A stretch of 37,415 nucleotides of DNA from Betaproteobacteria bacterium (GTDB lineage: Bacteria; Pseudomonadota; Gammaproteobacteria; Burkholderiales; SG8-41). Shown here in pieces: positions 3,002 through 37,197 of the stretch. The stretch is taken from NCBI GenBank assembly GCA_947486575.1, contig CANKUB010000037.1, positions 1 to 37,415 on the forward strand. Direction: 5' to 3'. The notes beneath the pieces were generated by a model. That model did not search any database and was not told the origin of the DNA. It saw only the letters and a program-made list of their open reading frames with translations. The position numbers were made by a program, and so were the translations under genes. Positions within the stretch are counted from its first letter, which is position 1. Every line of letters starts with the position of its first letter.

Positions 3002-3136
3002 AACCCTGAAAAATTGTGAAATAGTGCCGATATACAACACTTTAGCCACCGCTCATGGCGGTAAACTGACCGCATGTCGGGCCGCTTTGGACTGCGCCCG
3101 CACCATTCACTATTATCACGTCACTGGGAGAACCAC

Positions 3137-3598
3137 ATGAAGCACACCAAGCACACCAAGCACGCAAATTACGCGAAAACTGCCAAGGGATTTACCCTGA
3201 TAGAGATCATGATCGTCGTGGCAATTATCTCGATTCTTGCGGCTATAGCCATACCAGCCTATAGCGACTACATCATTCGCGGCAAACTCACCGAAGCCAC
3301 CAGTAATTTGGGGCAGTTGCGGGTGCGTGCTGAACAGTTTTTTCAGGATAACCGCACTTATGTGGGAATGTCCTGCACAACGGTCAATGCGGCGGATGCA
3401 AAATACTTTGTGTTCGATTGTGCAACCGCCGGAACGGCTACGGGCTATATGCTGCGGGCGACAGGTATAGCCGCCCAAGGCACGGGTGGCTTCGTATTTA
3501 CCGTGGACCAAACCAACGCAAAAGCGTCAACGGCTACGGCCTCGGGCTGGCCAGCCTCAAGCCCGACCTGCTGGGTTACAAGCAAGAAGGGCTGTTAA
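3137..3598 (+). CDS. pilE: Type IV (minor) pilin PilE
   Basis: A 153-residue type IVa pilin. The class III leader ends KG and the mature protein starts [20 protein letters not shown], with Glu5 and the hydrophobic helix that anchors pilins in the inner membrane and packs in the fibre core. The PilD prepilin peptidase would cut after Gly18. The C-terminus has a Cys pair ([10 protein letters not shown]), the usual disulfide-bounded D-region, plus an earlier pair (MSC..FDC). GGGAG lies 6 nt before the ATG at 3137. The leader is long and contains a triple KHT/KHA repeat. It is the first gene of the minor pilin operon, and its stop overlaps the fimT start (TAATG). Confidence 0.9.
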
Positions 3599-4128
3599 TG
3601 GGCTATCACCCGCAAAAGGGCTTTAGCCTCATCGAGCTGGCGATAGTTGTCGCCCTGCTCGGCGTGCTACTGTCTGTTGGCTTGCCGGCCGTAGCTGACT
3701 GGATTGCTACCCAGCGCGTACGCACAGCAGCAGAGGGCGTACTCAATGGCTTGCAACTGGCACGGGGTGAGGCAGTACGGAGCAACACCTTGGTGGATCT
3801 GCAAATCGGTGCAGACGGCATCTCCTGGAATGTCGTGAACAATGGCACAACGGTACAAACACGCGGGGCAGATGCGGGTGGGGGCGTAACAGCCGCGCCC
3901 GCAGGCGCGGCTACTATCACGTTCAACGGTGTAGGCAGAATGGTCACGCCCAACACAGGGACTTTTGCCATCAGATACACCTCCAGCGTAAACGGTGTAC
4001 GCGCAATGTGTGTGGCCGTTATGGCCAATACACCCAGGATGTGTGATCCGCTGCTGGCGGATGGTGACGTGAGAAGCTGCTGGACCACAGACGCCCTGGG
4101 TGCAAGAGTCATGGTCGCCGGTTGTTAA
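3598..4128 (+). CDS. fimT: Minor pseudopilin FimT/FimU (GspH family)
   Basis: A 176-residue GspH/FimT-type minor pilin. The leader MGYHPQKG is followed by FSLIELAIVVALLGVLLSVG with Glu5. After the helix comes the typical RVRTAAEGVLNGLQLARGEAVRSN segment, in which FimT/FimU proteins continue the alpha helix into a beta-rich head. The start at 3598 overlaps the pilE stop (TAATG), implying coupling; the longer in-frame extension into pilE is rejected. Minor pilins of this class form part of the priming complex at the pilus tip, and some FimT proteins bind DNA during uptake. Whether this one does is not visible. Confidence 0.88.
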   Translation: MGYHPQKGFSLIELAIVVALLGVLLSVGLPAVADWIATQRVRTAAEGVLNGLQLARGEAVRSNTLVDLQIGADGISWNVVNNGTTVQTRGADAGGGVTAAPAGAATITFNGVGRMVTPNTGTFAIRYTSSVNGVRAMCVAVMANTPRMCDPLLADGDVRSCWTTDALGARVMVAGC

Positions 4129-4153
4129 TGCTGAACTTAATGGACATTGCACA

Positions 4154-4543
4154 ATGAAACGTACTCGCGTTTACCAAAAAGGCGTGATGCTGCTGGAAGC
4201 GCTGATCGGCCTGCTCATTTTCTCCATTGGCATACTCGCCTTGATCGCCATGCAGTCGGTAGCCATTTCACAAGTGCGCGATGCTCAGTTCCGCGTCGAT
4301 GCCAGCGCCCTGGCAGAGCGTATGCTGGGCAATCTCTTTATCCTCGGCGGTCCATCGGTAACTGGCGCAAGCACCGTAATCGCCACCTGGCAGACCGAGG
4401 TCACTGCCGCACTACCCACGGGTGTAGGCACGGTCACGCCCGGCGCCAACGGCCAGGTTACGATCACGATTACATGGCAAGCACCGGCAGCGTCTACAAC
4501 CAGCACGCACACCAGCTTTGGTGTCATTGCGAATAACCTGTGA
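4154..4543 (+). CDS. pilV: Minor pilin PilV
   Basis: A 129-residue minor pilin with leader MKRTRVYQKG and mature start VMLLEALIGLLIFSIGILAL. This VMLLEA(L)IGLLIFSIG pattern, with Glu5, is characteristic of PilV. The segment QVRDAQFRVDASALAERMLGN then forms the helix-to-head transition. The start at 4154 is set by the short leader; the frame is open further upstream to 4100, which would overlap fimT. PilV joins the PilVWX-FimU priming complex that starts pilus assembly and connects to PilY1. The head is short compared with Pseudomonas PilV, so much of the tip contact may come from PilW and PilX. Confidence 0.85.
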   Translation: MKRTRVYQKGVMLLEALIGLLIFSIGILALIAMQSVAISQVRDAQFRVDASALAERMLGNLFILGGPSVTGASTVIATWQTEVTAALPTGVGTVTPGANGQVTITITWQAPAASTTSTHTSFGVIANNL

Positions 4544-4557
4544 TCGCGGAGTAACAC

Positions 4558-5811
4558 ATGCATCGTTCACGCAATAGCGGATTCAGCCTGGTCGAGTTAA
4601 TGGTGGCTGCGGTAATCGGCATCATTGGCAGCATCATCATTTTTCAGGTGTTTTCGGTGTTCGAAAATCAAAAACGCAACACCACCAGCGGTGGCGATGC
4701 AGAAACCAATCTATCTATCGCCACCAGCGCATTCGAACAAGCGGCACAACAGGCTGGCTACGGTATGAATTTCGCCAGCCATCTGGGCTGCACAGTACAC
4801 CAGTGGAAAGACCCTGCCGGCCCCATCACACCCCCCGCAACTGTCATGCCGCCAGGCGTCTATAACACGATGGTGCTGGCGCCGATTCTGCTTGAGCGCA
4901 ATCCCGACAGCACGCTGAAATCAATCACCTTTGTGCGCACCCGTGGCGATTCGTCCTATGCGGTGACTCAGCTCAGGGTGCCGTTTATTACCTCGTTTGA
5001 AGAGGATATAAAACCTGCGAATATTTACGGCTTTCACCAGGGCGACGTACTGCTCTTTGCCGAGAAAAAAGATACCAGCGATCCCAAGAAAATCAACCAC
5101 ATCACCTGCGCTGTCACCGACGTGCGCACCCTCGAATTACCCCCACCCGCAGAGAATCCCCCAGGCAACACCATTCCACAGCGCATTGTGCATACGCGCG
5201 GGGATTACGTTAAACCGGAGACCGGCACTGTTACGTACTACACCCAATACAACAAGGCCGGTGGCCTGGGCACACTGCAAACCAGCCCCACACCCATTCT
5301 GGTACCTGACGCGGAAACACGCTTCAAGTTCAGCGGCAGCGCCTTCATCATGAATATCGGGCAAGTTATAAAAGGATCAGACTGGTCGCTGCACCGTACC
5401 CAGTTTTCCCTGAGCAACGGTCAGTTGCTGGAGGGCGATCCTGCGGGCGGCAAGGCTTATCCGCTGGTTGATGGTGTCGTGTTCATGGATGCCCAACTGG
5501 GCATGGCAGCCACGCCCAAGCGTACAGCGAGCGAGACCAGCGTGATCTATTACAAAGAGATGCCCAAGGATGCCGATCCGGACGTAATGCCAAGGGTAGC
5601 GCAGGAAGATTGGTTTAAATTGAGAACCGTGCGCATCGCCATGGTAGTACGCACCAGCCAGTTCGACAAAAACTATACTAGCCCGTCCAGCTACAGCTTT
5701 TGGGATTCTAGCTTGACGACAACCTATGTCGTACCGTCCAGCGATCGCAATTACCGGCATAAAGTCGTCGAAATGGTAATCCCGTTGCGCAACTTCTATT
5801 GGAGACCCTAG
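4558..5811 (+). CDS. pilW: Minor pilin PilW
   Basis: A 417-residue PilW-type minor pilin. The leader MHRSRNSG precedes FSLVELMVAAVIGIIGSIII, with Glu5. The head is large, with a family-like C-terminus (DWFKLRTVRIAMVVRTSQ, then YRHKVVEMVIPLRN). GGAG sits 6 nt before the ATG, 14 nt after the pilV stop. PilW normally forms part of the tip priming complex with PilV, PilX and FimU. The length is somewhat above typical PilW proteins, which matches the oversized PilY1 partner encoded downstream. It ends 2 nt before the pilX start. Confidence 0.88.
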   Translation: MHRSRNSGFSLVELMVAAVIGIIGSIIIFQVFSVFENQKRNTTSGGDAETNLSIATSAFEQAAQQAGYGMNFASHLGCTVHQWKDPAGPITPPATVMPPGVYNTMVLAPILLERNPDSTLKSITFVRTRGDSSYAVTQLRVPFITSFEEDIKPANIYGFHQGDVLLFAEKKDTSDPKKINHITCAVTDVRTLELPPPAENPPGNTIPQRIVHTRGDYVKPETGTVTYYTQYNKAGGLGTLQTSPTPILVPDAETRFKFSGSAFIMNIGQVIKGSDWSLHRTQFSLSNGQLLEGDPAGGKAYPLVDGVVFMDAQLGMAATPKRTASETSVIYYKEMPKDADPDVMPRVAQEDWFKLRTVRIAMVVRTSQFDKNYTSPSSYSFWDSSLTTTYVVPSSDRNYRHKVVEMVIPLRNFYWRP

Positions 5812-5813
5812 TG

Positions 5814-6452
5814 ATGGGCCGAATCGTACGTAAACCAATTTACGCCGTCCGCTCGGTCAATATGCGTCGGCGCGCGCAACAGGGCGTGGTTTTGATCGTG
5901 GCACTGGTTGTGCTGGTGGCGATGTCGTTGGGCGGTATCGCCATCATGCGCTCGGTGGACACCTCTACCTTGATTGCCGGCAATATCGCCTTCAAAAATC
6001 GCTCCCGGCAATCTGCCGATGTCGGCATTGAAGCGGCTGTCACCTGGATCACAGCTAATCAAAGCAACTTGAATAGCGATAATACCGGCTCAGGCTATTA
6101 CTCCTCGGTATCCAACACCAGCCCTTTCGTATGGACGAGCGCAAACTCCTGGGCTACGGCGGGCAAGGTTAACAGCGGTAATCCCGACGTCTCCGGCAAC
6201 GTCGTGGAGTACGTGATCCATCGCTTGTGCGACCTACCGGGCGTGGGTGTCTCGGCAACAAATCAGTTGTGCGCATCGGATGCAGGTGCCGGTGGCACAA
6301 CGTATGAAGCGCCGTCGGAAGGCTCATCAAGCGCGGGTGGTGTCTCACCTTTTTCCGCTAAGTCAAAAATGTATCTGCGCATCATTGTGCGTAGCATGGG
6401 GCCACGTAACGCCACCAGCTACCTGCAGGCAATGGTGCTCGTTTCTTCATAA
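5814..6452 (+). CDS. pilX: Minor pilin PilX
   Basis: A 212-residue PilX protein. The PilX N-terminal pattern RRAQQGVVLIVALVVLVAMSLGGIAIMRS is present, followed by TSTLIAGNIAFKNRSRQSADVGIEAA. Position 5 of the mature protein is Val rather than Glu, as expected for PilX/GspK-like subunits that cap the fibre. The ATG at 5814 has GGAG about 9 nt upstream, inside the end of pilW. Four Cys residues in the head could form disulfides. It lies directly before pilY1, matching the usual pilW-pilX-pilY1 order. Confidence 0.87.
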   Translation: MGRIVRKPIYAVRSVNMRRRAQQGVVLIVALVVLVAMSLGGIAIMRSVDTSTLIAGNIAFKNRSRQSADVGIEAAVTWITANQSNLNSDNTGSGYYSSVSNTSPFVWTSANSWATAGKVNSGNPDVSGNVVEYVIHRLCDLPGVGVSATNQLCASDAGAGGTTYEAPSEGSSSAGGVSPFSAKSKMYLRIIVRSMGPRNATSYLQAMVLVSS

Positions 6453-6518
6453 ATATACATAAAATCAATTAGTTATATAACCCTCTCAAGCTACACAGCT
6501 ACTCAAGTGGAGTTTTCC

Positions 6519-9500
6519 ATGAATCGAAAAACCTGGTCGAATCTATTACGCGCCTTGCTGCTCCTGTGCGCTGCCTCCACCAGCTTGCTGTATATGCGCG
6601 CCCAGGCCACCACGGCGGACATATCAAACACCCCCATGGGTACCCGTTCGGGCAGCAATGTTGCACCCAATCTGATGTTTATTCTGGATGATTCGGGCAG
6701 TATGGATAACGACTACCTGCCCGATGCCGTTGGCGAGGCCAATATTTGCAGAACCTCTGCTGCCCTGACCGGCGCCGACTGTCAGCCGGGCATGCCGCCG
6801 TTTTATGCTTTTCAGTTCAATTCCATTTATTACAATCCGGCGACTACCTACGGTGCGGGGGTAACCTACCTCAACGCCACACTGGGCAACGCCACCCCCA
6901 CTGCGGCGAGGACTAACCCTTTCGCGGCCAGCGGCACCGTTAACGTGGCTACCCAGTACCGGGATATCTACTGGTGCCTGAGCTCAGTTTCTTCCACACC
7001 CTCTGCCGCTGTATTGGCTGATACTGCGCAATGCGTGCGCAATGGCGTCAATAACGGCGCCAGCCCTTTCGATTACGGCACGGCGGGCTTCCCCAATGCG
7101 ACCTTCAGTCAAAGAATTAACAAAGATACCGCAACCCCGCATTACTACACCATTACCCCGCGCGAATACTGCACCGATGAAACCCTGATCACCTGCACCC
7201 TGTCTGCGGGGCCGACCACTGTTGCCACTGTCGCCTACAACTTTCCCGCGCCGGTTCGGTGGTGCCGCACTGCGGGCGCCGTGGCTACGGCGTTGGCCGT
7301 TTCCGGCAACAGTTTTTCCGGCACCGGCGCGCGTGATTGTCAGGCCTTGACTGATGGCACCTACAACAAACCGCGTTTCGGCACCTTCACCCGCATCAAT
7401 ATAAACACCGGCAGCAGCTACCCCCGGGCAACTACCCGCTCGGATTGTTCAGGCGCAGTGGGCGCCACCGGCTGCACCGATGCGGAAGAGCTGCAAAACT
7501 TCGCCAACTGGTACTCGTACTACAACACCCGCCTGAAATTCATGAAAACCGTATCGGGCCGGGTGTTTGGCAGCATCGGTAACGATCCAAACTCAGGTGC
7601 CTTGCGCATGGGCTTTTTGACCATCAATGCCAGCAGCAGCGCGCGATATCTGAAAATCGACGATTTCAAAAATAATTTGCAGCGGCAGAACTGGTTCACC
7701 AAGATTTACGGCATCACTACCACCAATAGCACACCGCTGCGCGAAGCGCTATCCCGCGTAGGCCGCCACTTCGCCGGTATCACCTCGGGTCTAAACAGCT
7801 TCATGCCGGATGAACCTATGATCGCGTCATGCCAGCGCAATTACGCGTTTCTGGTGACGGACGGTTACTGGAACGGCAATGCCGGGCAGGATGTTGCCTA
7901 TACCGGCATCGGCAGCACCACGGGTACCGTTGGGGATCAGGACGACATATCTAGTCCCTCGGTGCCAATTTACGTAGACCGCGCCAAAACCGGCACCCTG
8001 GATGCCTTTGGAACAACCACCACCACGGTAACGCCAAACACAATCGTTGCAGAGGCGCTCTGTATTGGTAACGGCAACGCCACGTTCAGCACCCCGGCCA
8101 CCACCACTCCCTGCGGTTGCACTGGTAACGAAACGCGTCGCGTGCAACGGACCAGCACATTTAGTACAACGGTCGTGGCCGTGGATGGCGGAGCAACCAC
8201 CACAACAAATGGCACGGTTACTCAGACGTATGCACCCATGACCGCTTGCACAACGCCGACTGTCATCACCAATGTGACGCCCATTACGCTGGTGGAAGAA
8301 CAGGTTATTACGGGGGCTGCCAACAGCACCTTCACCGCCGTCAACGGCGTTGCCGCCGGGATCAATCAAGCCGGCGTATGTCCCGGTGGGCAACGACGCG
8401 TCAAACAGCGTACTACCACCTACAACTCGACAGTGATTACCACTGACGGCGTAGCGGGCGCGGCAACGTTTAGTGGCACAGCGTATGCCTTCGCCAATCT
8501 GGGTTCGTGCGTTTCCGTGCTTACCACCGTAGTAACCCCTGTCACCGTCGTGGACGAGCAGGTTGTCACAGGCCCGGCCACCAGCACGTTTGCCGCCATC
8601 AACGGCGTTGCCACCGGTGCCAACCAGGCTGGCGTATGTCCCGGCGCGCAACGGCGCATTAAGCGGCGCACCACCACCTACAACTCCACCGTGATTACCA
8701 CTGACGGCGTAGCCGCGCCAGCAACTTTCAGCGGAACGAATTATGCGTTCGCCGATCCAAGCACATGCATTTCTGTGGTGACTACGGTGATAACGCCTGT
8801 CACCGTTGTGGAGCAGCAAGTCCTCATAGGCTCAGCCGCCAGCACGTTTGCTGCCATCAATGGGGTTACCGCCGGTGCCAATGCGGCCGGCGTTTGTACC
8901 AGCGGGCAACGGCGCGTCAAGCAGCGCAATACCACCTACAACTCCACTGTGGTTACCACGGACGGCGTAGCCGCGCCAGCGACTTTCAGCGGAACGAATT
9001 ATGCGTTCTCCAATCCGGGCTCGTGCATTTCCGTGGTGACTACGGTGGTAACGCCTATCACGGTCGTGGAAGAGGAGGCCCTCACAGCCAATGCCACCAG
9101 CACATTTGCCCTGATTAACGGCCTCGCTACGGGCGCCAACCAGGCTGGCGTGTGCAGTACCAATCAGTCACGTATCAAACGTCGCACCACAGCGTATAAC
9201 TCTTCTGTTGTCACCACAGATGGTGTGGCGGCTCCGGCAACACTCAGTGGCACAGCGTATGCGTTTGCAAACCCGGGGTCGTGCGTCAATCTGACCAACA
9301 CAGTGATTAACCCTGTCGTCGAAACCAGGCAGTGGGTTACTACCTCGGTCGGAACCAATCTTCCAACCCTGTTTGCCGCGCCGCAAAACAGCGCGTCAGC
9401 CAGCGGCAATCCGCAAACTACCTTTACTTGCACAGGCGCAGGCAATACTGCCCAATTACAGCGGGTGACCACCTATAACCGGACTGTAGTTACCATTGGT

Positions 9501-12401
9501 ACGGGCGCTCCCACCACGACCTTCAGCGCGAACACAGCCAGCCCCACCTTTACCACGGTGCAAGCCTGTTCGGGTAGTGGCAAGACAGCAGCTGCAGTCA
9601 GCATCGTCAACAACGCGGCGACTTCCAACATAACAACGGGCGCGCCAGTGCCAGCCGCAACCACCACCACGCCCGGCACCCCCGGCGCACCTACCACGGT
9701 GGGCACCTACCCCACAGCGGCGGCAACTACCACCACGCCCGGCACCCCCGGCGCACCTACCACCACGGGCACCTATCCCACAGCGGCGGCAACTACCACC
9801 ACGCCCGGCACCCCCGGCGCACCGACTACGGTGGGCACCTACCCCACGGCGGCCGCAAATACCAATACGCCGGGCGTAACTGTGTCTACCAGTAACGGTG
9901 GCACCACGCTGACGATCGTACTAAGCCCGAACCCGACCAACTCCGCGGGAACCGGTGTAATAACGACCGCAGCAGGCGGCAGTTCCAACACACTGGCCGA
10001 CGTGGCTATGTATTACTACAAGACCGACCTGCGTACAACCGGGCCGTTCGCCAAGGACAACGTGCCGGTCGACGCCGACGGCAAAAAATTCATCGCGCCA
10101 CATCAGCACATGATTACGTTCACCATGGGCCTGGGGTTGGACGGCTTGATGACTTACCGCGACGATTATGAAAGCGCAACAACCGGCGATTTCTTCAAAA
10201 TCAAATCAGCCGCCACCAACTGCATATGGACAACGGGAACCTGCAACTGGCCGATTCCGGCTCAAAATACTGCCACTGCGATTGATGACCTTTGGCATGC
10301 GGCAGTCAATGGCCGTGGCAAATACTTCAGCGCGCGCCAGCCAGTCGCGGCGGAAAGCGGCATCAAGGAAACGCTTGCCGCCATCGATGTCGCCACCGGC
10401 TCTGCGGCGGCGGCAGCAACCAGCACGCCGAACCTGACCACCACCAACAACTCGCTCTATAGTTCGACGTATCGAACGGTTAACTGGGACGGCGAGATCG
10501 TCGCACGGACACTGGACCCCTCAACCGGTCTGTTGACACCGACGCCGTCATGGACAGCGGCAACCCAGCTCAATGCCAAAGGTCTGGCTAGCAGCGACAC
10601 GCGCACCATATATACGTTTGACGGTAACTTGCTGTCTACCACCAAACTCAAGTCGTTCGTGTACACCAATCTAACCGCTACTGAGCAAGCCTACTTCAAC
10701 AATCAGTGTACGGCGTTGAAATGGAATCAGTGTACGTTCCTCGCCAGCGATGCCACACGACTGGCTGCCGCCAACACTGGCGCCAACCTGATTGACTGGC
10801 TGCGCGGGCAACGCGGTAACGAGCTCAGCACGGACAACTCGACCGGTTATTTCCGCCGCCGTGAAAACCTGCTGGGGGATACCGTTAACTCCAAGCCGGC
10901 CTACATGGCCCCGCCGGAACTGCAATTCCAGGATGTCGTGTCACCAACCTACGAGACGTTCAAAACGGCCAACGCAACCCGGCAAAAAGTCCTGTTTGTT
11001 GCAGCTAACGACGGTATGTTGCATGCGTTCAACGCGGATACCGGTGCCGAGCTGTGGGCGTACATTCCCAAGATGATATTGCCCAACTTGTACAAGCTCG
11101 CAAACACCAGCTACAGCAACGCGCACGCGTTCTTTGTGGACGGCTCACCCACCGTAACCGATGTATTTTTGGGCGGCGCCTGGAAGACCGTTCTGGTCGG
11201 GGGACTCAATTCTGGAGGCCGCGGTTATTTCGCACTGGATGTGACCGACCCCAGCAGTCCCAAGGCGCTATGGGAAGTTTGCTCCGACCCGTTGCTGTGT
11301 GCTGTTACTGATACCGATATGGGGCTGTCGTATACCCCGCCGGTCATCGGCAAGCGACCCGCTGATGGTAAATGGGTGGTGATGGTCGCTTCTGGTTACA
11401 ACAATATTGGCCCGGGCAATGGCGGTGGCTATCTCTACATGCTGGATTTAGCGACCGGCGCTGTGCTGGAAAAAGTGGGCACCACGATCAGCGGCACGAA
11501 TGTCGGCGATACCACTACGCCGAACGGATTTGCGAAAATTACCGCGTTTGTCGACAACTTCATTTCTGACAATACAATGAAACTGATCTACGGCGGTGAT
11601 TTGCTGGGCAATATGTGGCGCTTTGATCTGGCAACTTCGCCACCCACCTTGACGCGTATCGCGCAATTGAAAGATGGTAGCGGGAAGCCGCAGTCGGTTA
11701 CCACGCGCCCTGATGTCACCAAGTTTACCGCTGGCTTCAATGCGGTTTATGTCGGCACCGGGCGTTTCCTGGGCGATTCCGATCTGGGTGATCCAGCCTT
11801 GCTTTTGCCTGCGCAGCCCTACGCGTATCAGCAGTCGGTGTATGCCTTCAAGGACACCAATGCCGATCTTGGCGATCTTCGTCTGGGCGCTGCAAACCTG
11901 GTCACGCAGTCCTTGATTGTTGTAGACGCCGCCAATCGCTCCATCAGCAATAATGCGGTGAACTGGACTACCAACAATGGCTGGTATGTGGATATGAATC
12001 CAGTGTGCGTAGGCACTGGATGCTCGCCGTCGGGCGAATCGCCGGGTGAACGGATCAATCTGGACGTGCAGCTGGTTCGTGGCACCGTGGTAGTGCTCTC
12101 CAATGAGCCGAATGCCGACACATGTTCTACGGGTGGCGACAGCTTTCTGTATCAGTTCAATTACGCGTCAGGATCCTATATCACAGGTACACCCGGCAAC
12201 ATTGTCGGCACCAAGATCGGGAATACGTTGGCGGTTGGTATCGTGGTGTTTCAGACGCTCAGTGGCCAAATTAAATCGGTCATTACAACGGCGGACGGCA
12301 AGTTACCGACGGCGGCTATCTCGACCAGTGGCGCATTTGGAGCACCCACGCGGGCAGCATGGCGCGAATTGCTGGATGACCGCACGAGTACCACGCCATA
12401 A
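6519..12401 (+). CDS. pilY1: Giant PilY1-type pilus tip adhesin / assembly factor
   Basis: A 1960-residue PilY1/PilC protein, far above the usual 1050-1200. The ATG at 6519 has TGGAG 6 nt upstream. Order of parts: signal peptide (residues 1-35, ending AQA); a von Willebrand A-like domain with MIDAS motif D57-D-S59-G-S61 and the strand FLVTDGYWNGN (Asp448); an extra block of roughly 690 residues (about 480-1150) holding four 86-residue repeats and three 22-residue Thr/Pro repeats; resumption of the vWA region at NTLADVAMYYYKTDLR; and the C-terminal PilC beta-propeller (LFVAANDGMLHAFNADTG, VLVGGLNSGGRGYFALDV, YGGDLLGNMWRFDL). PilY1 caps the pilus, primes assembly and controls retraction. The segment just before YGGDL (residues 1679-1687) lacks most acidic residues of the known calcium loop. 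Probably cotranscribed with pilE-pilX. Confidence 0.92.
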   Translation: MNRKTWSNLLRALLLLCAASTSLLYMRAQATTADISNTPMGTRSGSNVAPNLMFILDDSGSMDNDYLPDAVGEANICRTSAALTGADCQPGMPPFYAFQFNSIYYNPATTYGAGVTYLNATLGNATPTAARTNPFAASGTVNVATQYRDIYWCLSSVSSTPSAAVLADTAQCVRNGVNNGASPFDYGTAGFPNATFSQRINKDTATPHYYTITPREYCTDETLITCTLSAGPTTVATVAYNFPAPVRWCRTAGAVATALAVSGNSFSGTGARDCQALTDGTYNKPRFGTFTRININTGSSYPRATTRSDCSGAVGATGCTDAEELQNFANWYSYYNTRLKFMKTVSGRVFGSIGNDPNSGALRMGFLTINASSSARYLKIDDFKNNLQRQNWFTKIYGITTTNSTPLREALSRVGRHFAGITSGLNSFMPDEPMIASCQRNYAFLVTDGYWNGNAGQDVAYTGIGSTTGTVGDQDDISSPSVPIYVDRAKTGTLDAFGTTTTTVTPNTIVAEALCIGNGNATFSTPATTTPCGCTGNETRRVQRTSTFSTTVVAVDGGATTTTNGTVTQTYAPMTACTTPTVITNVTPITLVEEQVITGAANSTFTAVNGVAAGINQAGVCPGGQRRVKQRTTTYNSTVITTDGVAGAATFSGTAYAFANLGSCVSVLTTVVTPVTVVDEQVVTGPATSTFAAINGVATGANQAGVCPGAQRRIKRRTTTYNSTVITTDGVAAPATFSGTNYAFADPSTCISVVTTVITPVTVVEQQVLIGSAASTFAAINGVTAGANAAGVCTSGQRRVKQRNTTYNSTVVTTDGVAAPATFSGTNYAFSNPGSCISVVTTVVTPITVVEEEALTANATSTFALINGLATGANQAGVCSTNQSRIKRRTTAYNSSVVTTDGVAAPATLSGTAYAFANPGSCVNLTNTVINPVVETRQWVTTSVGTNLPTLFAAPQNSASASGNPQTTFTCTGAGNTAQLQRVTTYNRTVVTIGTGAPTTTFSANTASPTFTTVQACSGSGKTAAAVSIVNNAATSNITTGAPVPAATTTTPGTPGAPTTVGTYPTAAATTTTPGTPGAPTTTGTYPTAAATTTTPGTPGAPTTVGTYPTAAANTNTPGVTVSTSNGGTTLTIVLSPNPTNSAGTGVITTAAGGSSNTLADVAMYYYKTDLRTTGPFAKDNVPVDADGKKFIAPHQHMITFTMGLGLDGLMTYRDDYESATTGDFFKIKSAATNCIWTTGTCNWPIPAQNTATAIDDLWHAAVNGRGKYFSARQPVAAESGIKETLAAIDVATGSAAAAATSTPNLTTTNNSLYSSTYRTVNWDGEIVARTLDPSTGLLTPTPSWTAATQLNAKGLASSDTRTIYTFDGNLLSTTKLKSFVYTNLTATEQAYFNNQCTALKWNQCTFLASDATRLAAANTGANLIDWLRGQRGNELSTDNSTGYFRRRENLLGDTVNSKPAYMAPPELQFQDVVSPTYETFKTANATRQKVLFVAANDGMLHAFNADTGAELWAYIPKMILPNLYKLANTSYSNAHAFFVDGSPTVTDVFLGGAWKTVLVGGLNSGGRGYFALDVTDPSSPKALWEVCSDPLLCAVTDTDMGLSYTPPVIGKRPADGKWVVMVASGYNNIGPGNGGGYLYMLDLATGAVLEKVGTTISGTNVGDTTTPNGFAKITAFVDNFISDNTMKLIYGGDLLGNMWRFDLATSPPTLTRIAQLKDGSGKPQSVTTRPDVTKFTAGFNAVYVGTGRFLGDSDLGDPALLLPAQPYAYQQSVYAFKDTNADLGDLRLGAANLVTQSLIVVDAANRSISNNAVNWTTNNGWYVDMNPVCVGTGCSPSGESPGERINLDVQLVRGTVVVLSNEPNADTCSTGGDSFLYQFNYASGSYITGTPGNIVGTKIGNTLAVGIVVFQTLSGQIKSVITTADGKLPTAAISTSGAFGAPTRAAWRELLDDRTSTTP
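8286..9317 (+). repeat. Four tandem 258-bp (86-residue) repeats within pilY1
   Basis: Four consecutive in-frame units start at 8286, 8544, 8802 and 9060, each exactly 258 bp. Each begins T-[LV]-V-[ED], then runs through STFAAINGV, AGVC, RR[VI]K[QR]RTTTYNS, VTTDGVA and YAF to a second Cys (SC). Two Cys per unit suggest one disulfide per repeat. Strongly degenerate copies flank them before 8286 and from 9318 to about 9575. The units look like a beta-strand-rich stalk expanded by tandem duplication. Confidence 0.92.
9657..9854 (+). repeat. Three tandem 66-bp Thr/Pro/Gly repeats within pilY1
   Basis: Three nearly identical 66-bp units start at 9657, 9723 and 9789, encoding ATTTTPGTPGAPTTVGTYPT plus AA (the second has TTTG for TTVG). 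A partial fourth begins at 9855. The low-complexity Thr/Pro composition fits a flexible or extended linker between the repeat stalk and the rest of the vWA domain. Near-identity at DNA level implies recent expansion or ongoing slippage. Confidence 0.93.
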
Positions 12402-15290: not shown

Positions 15291-18114
15291 GATGGCGAGG
15301 CTCACCGGAACCAAACAAATTCGATACACAGCGTCCGCACAACGACGCATGTTCAGTGTTGGCACCCACATCTGCGCGGTAATGCCAGCAACGCTCGCAC
15401 TTGGCATGCGTGCTCGCGCTGACGCTGATGCTTGCAGCTCCCGGGTGCAGAGACGCGCGCGAGGTAATCATTACAAAGCGCAAATCGTCACCGAGTGACG
15501 CCAGTAAATCATGTGTCTCGCCTTGTGCATGCAAATCCAGTTCGCCTGCCAGCGATGAGCCGATCTTGCCTGCCGCACGCAGCGTTTCGAGTTCTTTTTG
15601 TACGTCGGAACGCAGTGCGCGCAATTTCGTCCAGCGTTCGCGCAACACATCCGCATCACGCGGCAAAGCGAGCTGATACCACGTCTGCTCAAAGACGCTG
15701 GTGTCAGATTTCTGAATGGTTGCCCATACTTCTTCAGCAGTGAACGAGAGTATCGGCGCCATCAGCCGCGTCAGCGCTTGTGTGATGTGGTACAGCGCGT
15801 TTTGCGCCGCGCGCCGCGCAGGCCCGGCAGCCGGTGCGGTGTAAAGCCGATCTTTCAGAATATCAAGATAAAACCCGCCGAGGTCTTCCGAGCAGAACGA
15901 TTGCAGCCGCTGCGCGACTTGATGAAACTCATAGCTGCCGTAGTGTCCGGGCGATTTCGGATCACGCACGCCGGACTCGGATGGCGTCAGTGCCATCTGC
16001 AAATCGTGCGTCATCACCCAGGCGTAGCGATCAATCTCCAGCCACTGGTCAATCGGCAGCGCATCGCGTGTGATGTCAAAATCCGCCAGATTGGAAAGCA
16101 AAAACCGCAGTGTGTTACGAATGCGCCGGTAGGATTCCACCACGCGCTTGAGAATTTCATTCGAGATCGAAAGTTCGCCGGAATAATCCGTCGCTGCCAC
16201 CCACAGACGCAGAATGTCCGCGCCCAATTCATCCATCACCTTTTGTGGCGCAACAACGTTGCCCTTGGACTTGCTCATTTTGCGGCCACTGCCATCGACC
16301 ACAAAACCGTGCGTGAGCAGGGCGCGATACGGCGGCTGGCCATCGGTCATGCAACTCACCAGCAGCGACGAGTGAAACCAGCCCCGATGCTGATCGGAGC
16401 CTTCAAGATATAAATCTGCCGGATACGCCAACGCATCTTTGTGCGAATTACGCAGCACGGTAAAGTGCGTCGAGCCGGAATCAAACCACACATCCAGCGT
16501 GTCTTTGATTTTTTCGTAGTGTACCGCTTCGGCACCCAGCAATTCTTCCGCTGTGATGGCCTGCCACGCTTCGATACCGCTTTTTTCAACGCGTTGCGCT
16601 ACCAGCTCCAGCAGCTCCAGCGTGCGCGGATGCAGCGCGCCGGTTTCTTTGGAGATGAAGAACGGCATCGGCACGCCCCACTGACGCTGACGCGACAACG
16701 TCCAGTCAGGTCGATTGGCGATCATGCCGTGCAACCGCGCCTGCCCCCATGCAGGGTAAAACTTGGTGTTCTCCACCCCGCGCAACGCGGTAGTACGCAA
16801 CGATTCTTTCGGCGTCTCGCCCTGCCAACCCTGGGTTTCATCCATTCCCGCAAACCACTGCACGGTGGCGCGATAAATGATCGGCGTCTTGTGGCGCCAG
16901 CAATGCATGTAGCTGTGTTCGTTTTTCGCCTGATTGAACAGCACACCTTTTTCTTCGAGATGCGCAACAATCTTCGGGTTGGCCTTCCAGATCATCTCGC
17001 CACCAAACAGCGACAACGACGGGGCGTATTTGCCGTCGCCCATCACCGGAGTGAGGATGTCCACGTCTTTCATGCCGTAACGGCGGCAGGACTGAAAGTC
17101 TTCAATGCCATACGCCGGCGCGGAATGCACAATGCCGGTACCGGTATCGAGCGTGACGTAATCGCCCAGGTAAATCGGCGATAGCCGATCGTAGAACGGA
17201 TGCCTGAAATTGAGTAATTCCAGCGCGGCGCCTTTGCACGTTGCAAGGGTTTTGCCGGTTAGATTGAATCGCGCAAGACACGTCGCCTGCAATTCCGCAG
17301 CGAGGATGAGCAACCCTCGCTCGGTATCCACCAGGTTGTAATCAAACTCCGGATGCGCGTTTAACGCCTGATTGCCCGGTAGCGTCCACGGCGTTGTGGT
17401 CCAGATCACGATATAGCCGGGCTTGTCCGGCAACGCCGACAGGCCAAACGCCTTGGCAATTTTTTCAGTTTCTACAAACGGAAAGCCCACATCAACCGCC
17501 ACATCTTTGCGATCTTCATATTCAACTTCGGCCTCGGCCAGCGCCGAGCCGCAATCGAAGCACCAGTTGACCGGTTTCAACCCGCGATAAACGTAGCCTT
17601 TTTCCAGCAACTTGCCGAGCGTGCGAATCTCGTCGGCCTCATTGCCATAAGCCATTGTTAAATAAGGGTTTTCCCAATCACCCAAAACGCCCAGCCGGAT
17701 AAAATCCTGCTTCTGCCGTTCGATCTGCTCGGTGGCATAGGCGCGGCACAACTGCTGCGTTTCGGCCGTCGGCAGATGTTTGCCGTGCTTCTTCTCGATC
17801 TGCACTTCAATCGGCATGCCGTGACAGTCCCACCCCGGCACGTACGGCGCATCAAAGCCCGACAACGACTTTGATTTGACGATGATGTCTTTCAGAATCT
17901 TGTTGACTGCATGGCCAATATGAATATCGCCATTGGCATACGGTGGGCCGTCATGCAGTACAAATTTAGGCCGGCCTTTGCTCGCCGTACGAATGCGCTC
18001 ATAGAACTTGCGTTCCTGCCAGTTCTTGAGCATCAGCGGTTCGCGTTTCGCCAAATCACCGCGCATCGGGAACGGCGTGTCGGGGAGATTCAGTGTGTGT
18101 TTGTAATCAGTCAT
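15283..18114 (-). CDS. ileS: Isoleucyl-tRNA synthetase
   Basis: A 943-residue class I aminoacyl-tRNA synthetase, full length for the bacterial type. The HIGH motif is at 65-68 ([11 protein letters not shown]) and KMSKS at 612-616. The editing (CP1) domain lies between them ([18 protein letters not shown]). A C-terminal zinc site has Cys906, Cys909, Cys926 and Cys929. The start [20 protein letters not shown] is typical. The ribosome-binding region (GGTGA about 11 nt upstream) falls within the left inverted repeat of the GxxExxY cassette that separates ileS from ribF. It overlaps lspA. Confidence 0.97.
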
Positions 18115-18124
18115 TTTTTAAAAA

Positions 18125-18164
18125 TCACCGCAAAGGCGCAAAGACGCAAAGTTGACGCAAAGAA
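18125..18164. repeat. Left inverted repeat arm of the GxxExxY cassette
   Basis: The 40-bp arm starts TCACCGCAAAGGCGCAAAGA and continues with two more CGCAAAG units. It matches the reverse complement of 18566-18605 with four mismatches. It lies just upstream of the ileS start and supplies its leader sequence. Confidence 0.9.
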
Positions 18165-18166
18165 GC

Positions 18167-18556
18167 TCAAAGATTATTCACGATGCGTTTGATGCCTTTG
18201 CGCATAATGTCTACATTAAAATTTAGCAACAACCCCAGCCTGAAACGATTGGCCTTCAGATACGTTAGCATCTGCGCCATGTGTATCGGCTCAATGCGCT
18301 CCACAGATTTCAACTCCAAAACCAATTCGCTTTCAACAAACATATCCAGTCTGTACGAATTGGGAATTACCAACGACTTGTACTGTAGCGGCATACCAAC
18401 CTACTCCGTTACCTCCAACTGCGCTTGCCGAAGCTCCCACGCCAAGCACTGCTGGTACGCCGACTCCAACAATCCCGGTCCAAGTATCCGATGCACCTCG
18501 ATTGCGCAGCCAATAACAACATTGCTGATTCGGTTAAGCTCGTCCTCCTGAATCAT
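18167..18556 (-). pseudogene. GxxExxY family protein, interrupted by an in-frame TAG
   Basis: Read on the minus strand from the ATG at 18554-18556, the frame gives a family N-terminus (IGCAIEVHRILGPGLLESAY, with the G28-x-x-E31-x-x-Y34 motif). It reaches TAG at codon 52 (18401-18403) and continues in the same frame with the family C-terminus (YRLDMFVESELVLELKSVER, then LLNFNVDIMRKGIKRIV). Total length of about 129 codons is normal for GxxExxY proteins, whose function is unknown. A CAG to TAG change would explain the stop. A possible restart ATG at 18392-18394 has GGAG about 9 nt upstream, so a 75-residue C-terminal product could still be made. The start overlaps the ribF stop (ATGA). Confidence 0.85.
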
Positions 18557-19521
18557 GGGTAGGTTTTCTTTGCGTTTCCTTTGCGTCTTTGCGCCTTTGC
18601 AGTGAAGTAGGTTTTAGCATTCTGCACATCCAACGCAATCTGCCGCTTCAAAGTATCCAGATCCGCGTATTTCGCTTCATCGCGCAGCTTGTGCAGAAAA
18701 TCCACGCGCAGTTGCTGCCCATAAATTTCTTGATTGAAATCAAATAGATACACTTCAAGTACAGGCGCTGCGCCCTGCGCCTTTACGGTCGGCCGCACAC
18801 CCAGACTGGCCGCACCGCGCACAACACCCGCCGCCGCGCCAGACACCTCCACCGCAAAGATGCCCGCGAGCGGAGCGCAATTACGTTTCATCTGCACGTT
18901 TGCAGTCGGAAAACCCAGCGTGCGGCCGAGCTGATCACCGCGTACCACGCGCCCGCTGATGCTGTACGCGCGCCCCAGGTATCTTGCCGCCTTGGCCAAG
19001 TCACCGGCGGCCAGCGCGTCGCGCACTGCCGTGCTTGATACGCGAATGCCTTCGACCATGACACTCGGCAGCGCCTGCACTTCAAAACCCAATCGCGGCG
19101 CTTCCTGCTTGAGCATCACAAAATCGCCCGCGCGGCGCGAGCCAAAACGAAAATCGTCACCCACCTGCAACCACTTCACACCAAGCCCGCGCACCAGCAC
19201 GCGCTCGATAAAATCCTGCGCAGCGATTTGCGCAAACGCATAATTAAATCGGCACACATGCACGTGATTCACGCCTGCCGCTTCCAGCCATGACAGCTTT
19301 TCGCGCAATGAGGTCAACCGCGCAGGTGCCTTATCAGGCGCAAAAAATTCGCGTGGCTGCGGCTCGAAAATCATTACGCAGGCCGGCACATTGAGCCGGC
19401 GTGCGGCACGCGCGAGTTCATCCAGCATTGCGCGATGCCCTAAATGGACACCGTCGAAATTGCCGATGGTCAGTGCAACCGGAGAGTTGGCGGCGGCGGG
19501 AATGCCACGGGTAACGCGCAT
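18553..19521 (-). CDS. ribF: Bifunctional riboflavin kinase / FAD synthetase RibF
   Basis: A 322-residue protein that turns riboflavin into FMN and then FAD. The N-terminal adenylyltransferase domain has TIGNFDGVHLGHR (HxGH at 26-29) and the VGDDFRFGSRRAGD region. The C-terminal kinase domain starts around 180 with GRVVRGDQLGRTLGFPTANV. The last residues, FTAKAQRRKGNAKK, are encoded by an inverted repeat arm and are not part of the family; the ancestral C-terminus was probably ...NAKTYP. The stop overlaps the GxxExxY start. Position upstream of ileS and lspA is the common proteobacterial arrangement. Confidence 0.96.
   Translation of the reverse strand: MRVTRGIPAAANSPVALTIGNFDGVHLGHRAMLDELARAARRLNVPACVMIFEPQPREFFAPDKAPARLTSLREKLSWLEAAGVNHVHVCRFNYAFAQIAAQDFIERVLVRGLGVKWLQVGDDFRFGSRRAGDFVMLKQEAPRLGFEVQALPSVMVEGIRVSSTAVRDALAAGDLAKAARYLGRAYSISGRVVRGDQLGRTLGFPTANVQMKRNCAPLAGIFAVEVSGAAAGVVRGAASLGVRPTVKAQGAAPVLEVYLFDFNQEIYGQQLRVDFLHKLRDEAKYADLDTLKRQIALDVQNAKTYFTAKAQRRKGNAKKTYP
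18566..18605. repeat. Right inverted repeat arm, embedded in the 3' end of ribF
   Basis: Reverse-complement partner of 18125-18164. It encodes RibF residues 306-319. The 9-bp string GTAGGTTTT occurs at 18559-18567 and again at 18607-18615, directly around this arm. That is the arrangement expected from a target-site duplication of an inserted piece of about 39 bp. Confidence 0.9.
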
Positions 19522-19578
19522 GGCGAAATCAAGCGTAAAAGCTTGAATTATAGCGTGTTTTCACTCTAAAGCCGTAAC

Positions 19579-21141
19579 TTACCCGGCCTTCTCAATGGGC
19601 TTTCCGGTGGCTTCATACCGCGCAAAATCCCGCAAGCGGAATCCCATCAACCACAAGGCGGCAAAATAAACGCCAGCGCCCAGCGTGACCACGCCTACCA
19701 ACCACAACACACGCACGGTCGCTGATGCCATCACCCAGCGTTGCGGCTCGCCCGCAGCAAACCACAACGCCGCTGCCATCAGCAACACCGCTACCAGCAG
19801 CTTGCCCAGGAATGAGCCCCAGCCCGGCTGTGGCTGATGAATCGCATGCCTGCGCAACTGGTAATACAACAAGCCCGCATTCAGACACGAACCCAGCGCA
19901 GTCGCCAGCGCCAACCCAGCATGCGCCAATGGCCCGATAAAAACCAGGTTAAGCAACTGCGTAATCACCAGCGCAACCACCGCCACTTTCACCGGCGTGC
20001 GTATATTTTGCCGCGCATAAAACGCCGGTGCCAGCACCTTGACCAGGATCAATCCGAGCAATCCGCCACTATAGGCCATCAGGGCTGCGCGTGTAGCCAG
20101 CGCATCGGCGTTGGAAAACGCTCCATGCATGAACAACGTGGTAATCAGCGGCATTGCCAGTATGGCCAACCCTACAGCAGCCGGTACCGTCAGCAAAAAC
20201 GTCAACCGCAAGCCCCAATCAAGCAGCGCCGAGTATTCCGAGCCAGATTTATTCGCATAATGCTTGGACAAACTCGGCAGCAGAATCGTGCCCAGCGCCA
20301 CGCCCAGCATGCCCGCTGGAAACTCCATCAGACGATCGGCGTAATACAGCCACGATACACTGCCGGTCACCAGAAACGAGGCAAAAATCACGTTCAGCAG
20401 CAGGCTGATCTGCCCTACCGAGACACCAAATAAAGCGGGCACCATTTGCCGCAACACACGCCGCACACCCGCATGCCGGAAGTTCAGCTTAAAGCGCGGC
20501 AACATGCGCAGCCGCATCAAAAACGGCACCTGAAGCGCGAGTTGCAGTACACCGCCGGTGAACACCGCCCAGGCCAGTGCTTTCGCCGGTGGATCGAAAT
20601 AAGGCGTAAGCCACAACACAAATGCAATGAACGACAGGTTCAGCAGAACCGGCGTAAATGCCGGCACCGCAAAACGGCCAAAGGTATTCAGTATGCCGCC
20701 CGCAAACCCGGTCAGCGAAATAAACAGAATGTACGGAAACGTAATCCGCAGCAAGTCGACCGTAAGGTTGAACTTGTCCGGGCTTTTGATAAAACCCGGC
20801 GCACTGACGTAGATCACGTAGGGCGCGGCCAGCACGCCCAGCAACGTGACGAGGAATAACACCAGCGCCAACATGCCGGACACGTAATCGAGCAGATCAT
20901 GCAACTCGCCTTCGCCCTGGCGGTTTTTGTATTCGCCCATAATTGGCACGAACGCCTGCGAAAACGCGCCTTCGGCGAACAGGCGGCGCAAAAAATTGGG
21001 GATTTTGAACGCCACCCAGAAGGCGTCGGTGGCCAAACCCGCACCGAAAACACGTGCAATCAGCGCGTCACGCACATAACCCAGGATGCGCGACAGCAAC
21101 GTCATGCTGCTGATAGTGCCCAGCGCTTTCAGTAAGCTCAT
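19579..21141 (-). CDS. murJ: Lipid II flippase MurJ
   Basis: A 520-residue polytopic inner-membrane protein of the MATE-like MVF family that flips lipid II across the membrane for peptidoglycan synthesis. The N-terminus MSLLKALGTISSMTLLSRIL, then GYVRDALIARVFGAG and KIPNFLRRLFAEGAFSQAF, are hallmark MurJ segments containing the conserved Arg residues of the central cavity. About 14 hydrophobic segments follow. It is divergent from rpsT across 155 nt and lies 57 nt before ribF, which may share its transcript. murJ next to rpsT is a common order in this group. Confidence 0.96.
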   Translation of the reverse strand: MSLLKALGTISSMTLLSRILGYVRDALIARVFGAGLATDAFWVAFKIPNFLRRLFAEGAFSQAFVPIMGEYKNRQGEGELHDLLDYVSGMLALVLFLVTLLGVLAAPYVIYVSAPGFIKSPDKFNLTVDLLRITFPYILFISLTGFAGGILNTFGRFAVPAFTPVLLNLSFIAFVLWLTPYFDPPAKALAWAVFTGGVLQLALQVPFLMRLRMLPRFKLNFRHAGVRRVLRQMVPALFGVSVGQISLLLNVIFASFLVTGSVSWLYYADRLMEFPAGMLGVALGTILLPSLSKHYANKSGSEYSALLDWGLRLTFLLTVPAAVGLAILAMPLITTLFMHGAFSNADALATRAALMAYSGGLLGLILVKVLAPAFYARQNIRTPVKVAVVALVITQLLNLVFIGPLAHAGLALATALGSCLNAGLLYYQLRRHAIHQPQPGWGSFLGKLLVAVLLMAAALWFAAGEPQRWVMASATVRVLWLVGVVTLGAGVYFAALWLMGFRLRDFARYEATGKPIEKAG

Positions 21142-21577: not shown

Positions 21578-21943
21578 TCAGGCGGTGATGGGCTCGGGGC
21601 GCGGTTCAAGGCGTCCGGGCCGTAAAGTGAGTTCGTTGTCACGGGCAAACGACATCAAAAATTTATAGGCCGCCGGGTCAAGCGCCTCCAGTTTGCAATC
21701 CACTACCACGCAGGTCGTACCCGTCACGATGACCGGCTTGAGATAGGGTGAATAGCTTAACTGCCGGTCTTCGCCAAACACCGACATCATGCCGCAAAGA
21801 CGCTCCGCCCAGTCGCTGGGGCGAAATTTTTCACCGGCAGCGGTAACACCCTGAATCACAATTTCGGCTGCGCCGTCGAACATGGAATCCGGTGTTTGTG
21901 CTTGACTGGACGACGTAGATACGGAAGGCACTGGAAGCAGCAT
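21578..21943 (-). CDS. DUF3579 family protein
   Basis: A 121-residue protein with the DUF3579 core EIVIQGVTAAGEKFRPSDWA, then ERLCGMMSVFGEDRQLSYSP and a C-terminal FLMSFARDNELTLR. The family is largely betaproteobacterial and of unknown function; it commonly lies between rpsT and arginine genes, as here. The start could instead be the ATG at 21881-21883 (MFDGAAEIV), which would give 101 residues closer to the family core. Neither start has a strong ribosome binding site. It is divergent from argD. Confidence 0.88.
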   Translation of the reverse strand: MLLPVPSVSTSSSQAQTPDSMFDGAAEIVIQGVTAAGEKFRPSDWAERLCGMMSVFGEDRQLSYSPYLKPVIVTGTTCVVVDCKLEALDPAAYKFLMSFARDNELTLRPGRLEPRPEPITA

Positions 21944-22019
21944 GTGGCAAGTTTACCAGAGCCCTATTGACGAAAACGGCTGAAACTGAAGGAAATACCG
22001 GCTGTAATCAAGATTTCAC

Positions 22020-35509: not shown

Positions 35510-36118
35510 ATGTCCCGTAAATCAGAACCACGCCTGGCACCCCTACCCAAAGAAACCACGCCCGAACTTTCCGGCGCGTTTCAAACGTATGTGAAAGTGC
35601 TGGGATTCATTCCCAACAGCGTGCTGATCATGCAGCGCAAACCAAAAATCGTGCAGGCGCTGTCACAACTGGCCGCTGCGATTTGGGATCCGGCGAGCGA
35701 GGTGCCGGTGGCGTTCAAGCGTATGCTGGCGCACGTTGCCAGCCGCGCGCACGGATGCAGTTATTGAATGGCGCACACTGCGGGGGCGGCGCTCCAGCTA
35801 GGCGTTGAAGACAAAAAACTTGAAGCCGTATGGGAGTTTCGCAGCAGCGAATTATTCTCCACCAAAGAACGTGCAGCACTCGAAGTCGCCGTTGCAGGCG
35901 CGGCGCAGCCCAATGAAGTCACCGATGACCTATTCGCGGAACTCAAGCGCCACTGGAACGAAGGCGAGATAGTCGAGATCGTCGCGGTCATTTCCATGTT
36001 CGGCTTCATGAACCGCTGGAACGATACGATGGCCACACCGCTGGAAGAAGAACCCATCCACGTCGGCGAGAAACATCTGGCCAAAAGCGGCTGGCGCGTC
36101 GGCAAACATGAACAGTAA
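35510..36118 (+). CDS. Carboxymuconolactone decarboxylase/AhpD-like protein with in-frame TGA: probable CxxU selenoprotein
   Basis: One 202-codon frame runs from the ATG at 35510 to the TAA at 36116-36118 with a single internal TGA at 35765-35767 (codon 86). The part before TGA has the family N-terminus (TYVKVLGFIPNSVLIMQRKP, then KRMLAHVASRAHGCSY). The part after it continues without shift (MAHTAGAALQLGVEDKKLEA, then EIVEIVAVISMFGFMNRWND). Relatives of this CMD/AhpD-like family carry C-x-x-C followed by x-A-H here. TGA replaces the second Cys, giving Cys83-Ser-Tyr-Sec86-Met-Ala-His89. AhpD-like and CMD-domain CxxU selenoproteins are known. Such proteins are thiol peroxidase-type redox enzymes. 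A hairpin fitting a bacterial SECIS follows the TGA. selABCD are not in the window. The alternative is a nonsense pseudogene or two fragments; a 116-residue restart ORF begins directly after the TGA at 35768. Confidence 0.75.
35778..35797 (+). promoter_or_regulatory. Candidate bacterial SECIS hairpin downstream of the in-frame TGA
   Basis: Hand folding gives CTG (35778-35780) pairing with CAG (35795-35797), one bulged C, then GGG (35782-35784) pairing with CTC (35792-35794, one G-T pair). The apical loop is GGCGGCG (35785-35791). The loop begins with G and lies 17 nt after the TGA, inside the range reported for bacterial SECIS elements. The region is GC-rich and other folds exist, for example GGCGC at 35770-35774 with GCGCT at 35789-35793. 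Confidence 0.4.
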
Positions 36119-36222: not shown

Positions 36223-37197
36223 TTATCCGCTGAATGCAATACCCGCGTCACGTACCACACGACCCCATTTTGCAATCTCACGCTCAACCAATGCCCCCAA
36301 TTCGTCGGGCGTGCCGGTGACCACATCCGTGCCCGCGCTGGCAAACGCCTTATGCACATCCGGTGCGCGCAACGCACGGCTGATTTCGCCGTTTAGCCGC
36401 GCGATGATATGCAGTGGCGTACCCTTCGGCGCAGCAATGCCGAGCCACAACGTAGCTTCATAACCCGCGACGCCGCTTTCTGCCAACGTGGGAATATCGT
36501 TCGCTTGCGTAGACCGTTGCGCGCCGGTCACCCCTAACGCGCGCAAGCGACCTGCACGATGATGCGGTAGCGCAATCGCAATGCCCGGAAAGCCAATCTT
36601 GACTTGCCCGCCGAGCAGATCCGCCGTCGCGGGGCCGCTGCCTTTATACGGAATGTGCGTGGTGTTAACCCCCGCCATTGACATGAAGAGCGCGCCAAAA
36701 AGATGCTGCGCGCCGCCCGTGCCCGACGATGCCCAATCGAGTTTGCCCGGCTGCGCTTTCGCCAGCGCAATCAGTTCCTGTGTGGTACGCACATTTAACG
36801 TGGGGTGCGTCACCAGCGTATTCGGGGCAGAGCCAAACTGCGATACCGGTGCGAAATCCTTTACCGGGTGATACGGCAGCTTGCGATAAATCGCAGGACT
36901 GACGGCAAATGGCGTGCCCGTCATCAAAATGGTGTAGCCGTCGGGCGGCGCGCTGGCAACCAGCTCAGTGCCGATGATGCTGCCAGCGCCGGGCCGGTTA
37001 TCCACCACCACCTGATAGCCGAATTGATCCGACAGCTTTTGCGCGAGTATGCGGCCCGGCACATCCGTTGCGCCGCCGGGTGAAAACGGCACGACCATGC
37101 GTATCGGTCGCGTTGGGTAGGGTTGCAGCTGGGCAAGCGCCACTGCATGCAGGCCACAGGCGAAAGCTACGCCCGCCAAATTAAAGATGCTGTGCAT
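36223..37197 (-). CDS. Bug/TctC family tripartite tricarboxylate transporter binding protein
   Basis: A 324-residue periplasmic solute receptor. A signal peptide ends ALA (residue 22), followed by YPTRPIRMVVPFSPGGATDV, the hallmark TctC/Bug opening. Further blocks are VVVDNRPGAGSIIGTELVA, PDGYTILM and HIPYKGSGPATADLLGGQV. These proteins bind small carboxylates and usually work with TctA/TctB, but betaproteobacteria carry many orphan copies, and no tctAB is here. GAGGGATC precedes the ATG. The ligand cannot be predicted from sequence. Confidence 0.93.
   Translation of the reverse strand: MHSIFNLAGVAFACGLHAVALAQLQPYPTRPIRMVVPFSPGGATDVPGRILAQKLSDQFGYQVVVDNRPGAGSIIGTELVASAPPDGYTILMTGTPFAVSPAIYRKLPYHPVKDFAPVSQFGSAPNTLVTHPTLNVRTTQELIALAKAQPGKLDWASSGTGGAQHLFGALFMSMAGVNTTHIPYKGSGPATADLLGGQVKIGFPGIAIALPHHRAGRLRALGVTGAQRSTQANDIPTLAESGVAGYEATLWLGIAAPKGTPLHIIARLNGEISRALRAPDVHKAFASAGTDVVTGTPDELGALVEREIAKWGRVVRDAGIAFSG

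Follow-up and report, generated by a model that had tools for sequence, protein, structure and literature searches.

The frame at positions 35510–36118 (+) of the window, by which we mean the whole 37,415-nucleotide stretch of DNA analysed here, very probably encodes a selenocysteine (Sec) enzyme that has the CMD/AhpD fold and belongs to the branch closest to the debrominase Bmp8, with Sec86 predicted to be inserted at a TGA codon via SelB and a hairpin. The first-pass annotation had regarded a Sec-containing redox enzyme with a CxxU centre as probable, and the sel genes of the genome, the recurrence of the TGA among relatives, the selection acting on the gene and the conserved hairpin all agree with that proposal.

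A single in-frame TGA at the active-site motif

Read through the TGA, 35510–36118 (+) is one frame of 202 residues closed by TAA, and its sole in-frame interruption is the TGA at 35765–35767 (+; codon 86), for which a Sec reading is predicted. Translation bears out the earlier description of a frame unbroken around this codon, and no further disabling change was seen in it besides the TGA. The read-through translation and an alignment of 42 sequences place the active-site motif C83-S-Y-U86-M-A-H89, a CxxU followed by a conserved His, at 35756–35776 (+). Within the 42 aligned sequences the motif columns G82, Y85, A88 and H89 do not vary, and conservation at positions 83 and 86, with Sec counted as C, is at least 90%. 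The TGA had been claimed to occupy the place of the second catalytic Cys of the family motif, with a Cys expected at this column in homologues; close homologues indeed read Cys there (TGC or TGT). The closest relatives of the window gene share 83–86% identity with it across almost the full length. Standard gene callers had been expected to split such a gene, and the only piece of the frame that was listed (table 11, at least 90 aa) is the 116-aa downstream ORF (35768–36118).

Fold and nearest relatives

The read-through protein matches the Pfam CMD domain (PF02627) over residues 45–128 with 39.9 bits (cut-off 23), and all its NCBIfam matches fall below the respective cut-offs: it scored 68.3 bits with TIGR01926 (peroxidase-related enzyme; cut-off 81.8), and is a member neither of NF053654 (YciW-related (seleno)protein; 63.2 bits, cut-off 310) nor of NF041238 (AhpD_rel_CFYUT; 20.2 bits, cut-off 175). 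A sequence search of solved structures gave the debrominase Bmp8 as best match (6ohi, E 2e-30), the next different protein following at 2.5e-8, and a profile of 42 sequences gave 155 bits for Bmp8 versus 69 for the next protein, a peroxidase-related one. Similar results were obtained with an AlphaFold2 model of the window protein (pLDDT 94.4, pTM 0.90), for which Bmp8 was the best match in Foldseek (33–34% identity) and reached Z 25.5 in VIA-align (rmsd 1.8 over 186 residues), the next entry, an AhpD, being found at Z 20.1. The entry 6ohj is Bmp8 C82A with 2,3,4-tribromopyrrole; the position at which 6ohi and 6ohj differ aligns to Cys83, and the second motif Cys of Bmp8 aligns to Sec86.

In constraint tests on a CMD tree, the group and Bmp8 as one clade was not rejected (p 0.456) and the group without Bmp8 was (p 0.037), although the peroxidase-related 2prr, on a very long branch, was drawn into the family of this tree too; L083 and the own-genome ORFs L071, L072, L073 and L078 (probably wrong frame) were left out of it. 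The earlier label "AhpD/CMD-like" was right as to the fold but too general, since by sequence and by structure the nearest relative is Bmp8.

As to the substrate, we give an AhpD-like function, in which the protein would be a Sec-dependent peroxidase or disulfide reductase, roughly even chances. Peroxidase-related models do match the protein, albeit below cut-off. CxxU selenoproteins of the AhpD/CMD fold, which the first-pass annotation had correctly called established, have been on record since 2005 (PMC1088965) and 2008 (PMC2398784), and in the extracts available of these reports and of a 2026 review (PMC13188914) they are filed as AhpD-like or CMD-like, the review naming TIGR01926-type AhpD-like and PF02627-type CMD-like CxxU families. 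On the other hand, the peroxidase-related structures are more distant from the window protein than Bmp8 is (69 vs 155 bits; Z 20.1 vs 25.5).

A Bmp8-like reductive dehalogenase that employs Sec as thyroid deiodinase does appears unlikely. The closest solved relative was crystallised, as the C82A variant, with a tribrominated pyrrole, and it shares with the window protein NRWN, both positions of the motif and the His that follows them; however, an identity of 33–34% and the very long branch of Bmp8 (2.25 changes per column in the main tree described below) do not transfer a substrate, and the adjoining genes hold no recognised pointer to organohalogens. In its title, a 2019 paper reportedly likens the working of Bmp8 to that of human thyroid deiodinase, which is itself a selenoenzyme. 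Whatever weight these two substrates leave goes to something else or to the gene encoding no selenoprotein.

Selenocysteine machinery

For the predicted Sec enzyme, the presence of selA, selB, selD and tRNA-Sec in the genome had been put forward as a check, and all four are present in the window's genome (5.35 Mb in 282 contigs, 98% complete). Three of them lie on one contig (C47), namely selA at 17391–18758 (579 bits), selB at 18804–20696 (455 bits) and tRNA-Sec at 21857–21947 (77.7 bits; tRNA-SeC with anticodon tca according to ARAGORN), and selD lies on contig C248 (426 bits) with an in-frame TGA in GGGUGCK. Neither the ORF with one TGA between selB and tRNA-Sec nor the opposite-strand ORF beside this interval has a translation that is protein-like by eye.

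Among 60 whole genomes, 42 carry a tRNA-Sec of at least 70 bits, the threshold used here; at Rfam's own cut-off of 47 bits the count rises to 48 of the 60, the six added genomes having only weaker matches, some of 47–50 bits. A copy of the gene with exactly one internal TGA (relatives of at least 54% identity) is present in 19 of the 60 genomes, the window's own included. All 19 have a tRNA-Sec of at least 70 bits, and a TGA-bearing close relative was found in none of the 18 genomes without one (hypergeometric p 2e-4 over the 60 genomes, kinship ignored). SelB scored above cut-off in 16 of the 19, and the three exceptions are all fragmented assemblies: in G013 the gene is split, in G029 it is partial, and in G034 no match exceeded the cut-off. 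Another genome, G031 (86% complete), departs from this pattern: a distant paralogue there bears the TGA and selB is present in full, yet no tRNA-Sec reaches 70 bits.

A hairpin conserved downstream of the TGA codon

A SECIS-like hairpin is located at 35780–35798 (+) of the window, with the loop CGGCG at 35787–35791 and one G x A mismatch in the window copy. In the Sec genes the hairpin starts at the 13th base after the TGA and spans bases 13–31; counted from the T of the TGA, columns 16–22 pair with columns 28–34 around a loop of columns 23–27. Standard pairs occupy 97.0% of the stem cells among 33 distinct Sec sequences, a value reached by none of 500 column shuffles, and pairing in these sequences drops to 26–57% when the stem is slid by one to three columns. 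With all 47 Sec genes included, pairing extends to 321 of 329 stem cells. At the same columns, 14 Cys/Ser homologues have 37.8% of cells paired, which is under the shuffled mean.

Column 18, a synonymous third position within an Ala codon, tracks column 32, which lies in another codon: C faces G in 28 sequences and U faces A in 17, with two exceptions, one of which is the window copy with its G x A at the third pair. This covariation is suggestive rather than many times repeated, because only two independent concerted changes lie behind it in a tree built without these residues, and two events are too few for a sign test. Further pair types in the stem showed no excess over shuffles (4 vs 5.0).

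The bSECIS criteria, as given in an extract of the 2026 review (PMC13188914), call for a loop of 3–9 nt, a stem of 4–16 bp, a G in the first two loop positions, a distance of 16–37 nt from the TGA and an energy of −7.5 or lower. The first-pass annotation had proposed a bSECIS search as a check. Its outcome is mixed: with −7.8 kcal/mol, a GGC loop, a distance of 20 nt to the TGA and one stem mismatch, the window hairpin lies barely within the coded criteria, but folded alone it is no better than shuffles (z 0.05), and the criteria are weakly specific. All 54 Sec rows passed them, as did 7 of the 15 Cys rows but neither of the 2 Ser rows; of 400 random TGAs taken from the window, 49 passed too, and in 45 of these the energy equalled that of the window gene or was lower still. 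The stronger evidence for the hairpin is its conservation among relatives.

Recurrence of the TGA codon among relatives

Among 71 rows with a readable motif, the codon at the Sec column is TGA in 54, TGC in 13, TGT in two and AGC in two. Identical pieces had been removed beforehand and the motif search took only stop, Cys or Ser at this column; L103, with Ser at the Sec column and the first motif Cys lost too (SxxS), stands outside the 71 rows and was counted separately as Ser. The 54 TGA rows comprise 47 distinct close-group genes, including that of the window, one repeated piece (L110) and six distant paralogues, two of which come from the window's own genome (L084, L111). Every one of the 54 stops at the column is TGA, and neither TAA nor TAG was found there. 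Where relatives lack the TGA, the column encodes Cys or Ser, or Thr in the case of two distant relatives.

Scanning genome contigs turned up 27 relatives. Of 399 genomes surveyed within the order, close matches are present in 24, and 20 of these, by listing, carry the TGA form, one of them (G176) having TAA as well as its TGA-bearing match; the four others have Cys (G045), Ser (G020), Ser-Ser (G172) and Cys with stops elsewhere (G142). In a sample of 398 genomes of the phylum, matches at 1e-30 were obtained in 10, and only the window's own genome has a TGA; the nine others have matches at 10 places, eight with Cys and two with Thr at the column (L123 and L124). These two distant relatives, with the motif CRYT, belong to two genomes of the same order.

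Two further CMD-domain genes of the window's own genome each have one in-frame TGA at the same motif, one on contig C53 (L111:2499–3194; motif NNCNYU-TQH) and one on contig C21 (L112:1884–2522; motif NECQYU-IKH). Each falls within the coded bSECIS criteria, and both score far under the NCBIfam selenoprotein cut-offs. Together with the window gene and selD, the genome has at least four Sec-type genes.

Recent nonsense mutations usually show as a lone in-frame stop within a gene that is intact in every other respect, and disrupted relatives do exist, such as L104, which has Cys at the column and TAG and TAA elsewhere. That the window gene is a Cys-type CMD gene broken by such a mutation, or by a sequencing error, is nevertheless highly improbable, and we rejected this reading: the identical TGA stands in 47 distinct genes from many assemblies, tRNA-Sec accompanies it in all 19 close-group TGA genomes, and the frame downstream of it is as constrained as the frame upstream. 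Against eight relatives, dN/dS of the window gene is 0.06–0.13 before the TGA (computable in 8 of 8) and 0.05–0.11 after it (computable in 7 of 8, one pair being saturated at synonymous sites). Purifying selection is similarly strong on both sides, and a dead gene would look different. The first-pass annotation had judged a chance nonsense mutation unlikely and had seen family sequence without decay past the TGA; on both points it was correct.

Equally improbable is a regulated truncation, or two genes, with translation stopping at the TGA and the 116-aa ORF starting from its own ATG (35768): the ATG immediately 3′ of the TGA is what leads gene callers to list this ORF, and the next codon in 36 Sec genes is ATG, or GTG in L016, both possible starts, but the TGA sits between the motif Cys and His of a single domain, Cys/Ser homologues run continuously through the site, Met is kept there as an ordinary residue in L048, L049, L020, L023 and L030, and in distant Sec paralogues the residue that follows is Thr or Ile, so that this reading was rejected on domain continuity through the TGA and selection on both sides.

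History of the site

The main tree has 79 rows, with the Sec column masked; it holds no AhpD or peroxidase-related proteins and omits L104 (several stops), L110 and the L011 fragment (repeats) and L036. Its outside branches are Cys forms from several Pseudomonadota classes and Bmp8, the latter placed among the Cys relatives. Sec and Ser forms make up one group (92/86, just below the starred level), and each row in it belongs either to the window's order or to a record with Burkholderiales or Betaproteobacteria in its title. This fullest tree suggests, as its simplest reading, one gain of Sec from Cys within Burkholderiales. In an earlier tree with fewer Cys relatives, in which L104 was left out, the Cys forms were nested inside the Sec forms.

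The Ser rows (L023, L030 and L103) form one clade (100/98), and the Sec rows alone are supported at 16/0. From these placements, the Ser clade may lie inside or beside the Sec forms, and a change from Sec to Ser is possible. The Ser-bearing relatives (CxxS; SxxS in L103) are possibly redox-inactive or repurposed paralogues. The genomes of L023 and L030 (G020 and G033) do have tRNA-Sec.

Genomic neighbourhood

Beside the gene lies a divergent xseB/ispA region (names from reading the sequence), which we take to be housekeeping. Downstream, at 36223–37197 of the window, a TctC-type receptor gene was found. The window's genome has at least 150 genes of this type (150 candidates were scored and all matched), a very large expansion that makes such a neighbour expected and uninformative, and it was rejected as a functional hint.

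Elsewhere in the window, 3074–12401 holds consecutive pilin-like ORFs and, after them, an ORF of 1964 aa that contains Thr-rich repeats and by eye looks like a PilY1-type pilus tip protein. Near the L044 relative, a gene at L044:737–1804 passes the ArsS model (arsenosugar biosynthesis radical SAM) with 462.7 bits. Homologues of this gene likewise lie near relatives L040 and L043, the model scan having been made on the L044 copy alone; in L040 such a homologue adjoins a Cys-type relative of the selenoprotein, and this Cys-type relative is also present near the Sec gene in L039 and L041.

Discussion

Taken together, these results suggest a model in which SelB and Sec-tRNA-Sec, guided by the hairpin, would insert Sec at residue 86 instead of terminating translation. 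By analogy with the behaviour of CxxC and CxxU centres, Sec86 would be the residue that attacks the substrate and Cys83 its resolving partner; a Sec86–Cys83 selenenylsulfide may then form, to be reopened by a cellular thiol reductant. The substrate attacked could be a peroxide or a disulfide, as in AhpD, or a halogenated small molecule, as in Bmp8.

Proteins of the CxxU kind are already known; what is new is a subfamily that lies over no matched NCBIfam cut-off and has a debrominase as its nearest structure. A Sec form of a Bmp8-like debrominase was not found in print in the open-licence literature. The subfamily has likely been missed or miscalled in environmental Burkholderiales genomes, since a gene caller that treats TGA as a stop splits each such gene into two pieces. 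The set of at least four Sec-type genes in the window's genome contrasts with a 2006 survey, an extract of which gives formate dehydrogenase as the only selenoprotein of the Sec-decoding Betaproteobacteria sequenced at that time (PMC1794560).

The kinship with a debrominase makes the use of Sec for reductive dehalogenation in a fold unrelated to deiodinase directly testable. It seems doubtful that the protein is a Bmp8-branch reductive dehalogenase, its second motif Cys having given way to Sec once within Burkholderiales; were this so, it would be an independent counterpart, of unrelated fold, to the Sec-dependent thyroid deiodinases, and would act on natural or man-made organohalogens in environmental bacteria.

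Compared with known systems, the predicted selenoprotein is most like Bmp8 (6ohi, 6ohj), part of a brominated-pyrrole pathway according to an extract of a published account (PMC7918430), with which it shares fold, length, the CxxC/U-x-x-x-H layout, both motif positions, the His and NRWN, and from which it differs in that Bmp8 has Cys where the window protein has the predicted Sec. AhpD and the peroxidase-related enzymes (6e8l, 2prr, 6k40, 3c1l) have the same fold (Z 18–20), but with 17–22% identity in structural alignment they are clearly further away than Bmp8. The AhpD-like and CMD selenoproteins (COG2128, Pfam02627 and TIGR01926-type) have in common with the window protein the CMD/AhpD fold and the CxxU motif, and the families of NF053654 and NF041238, both named "(seleno)protein", have a related domain, although the window protein scores far under their cut-offs.
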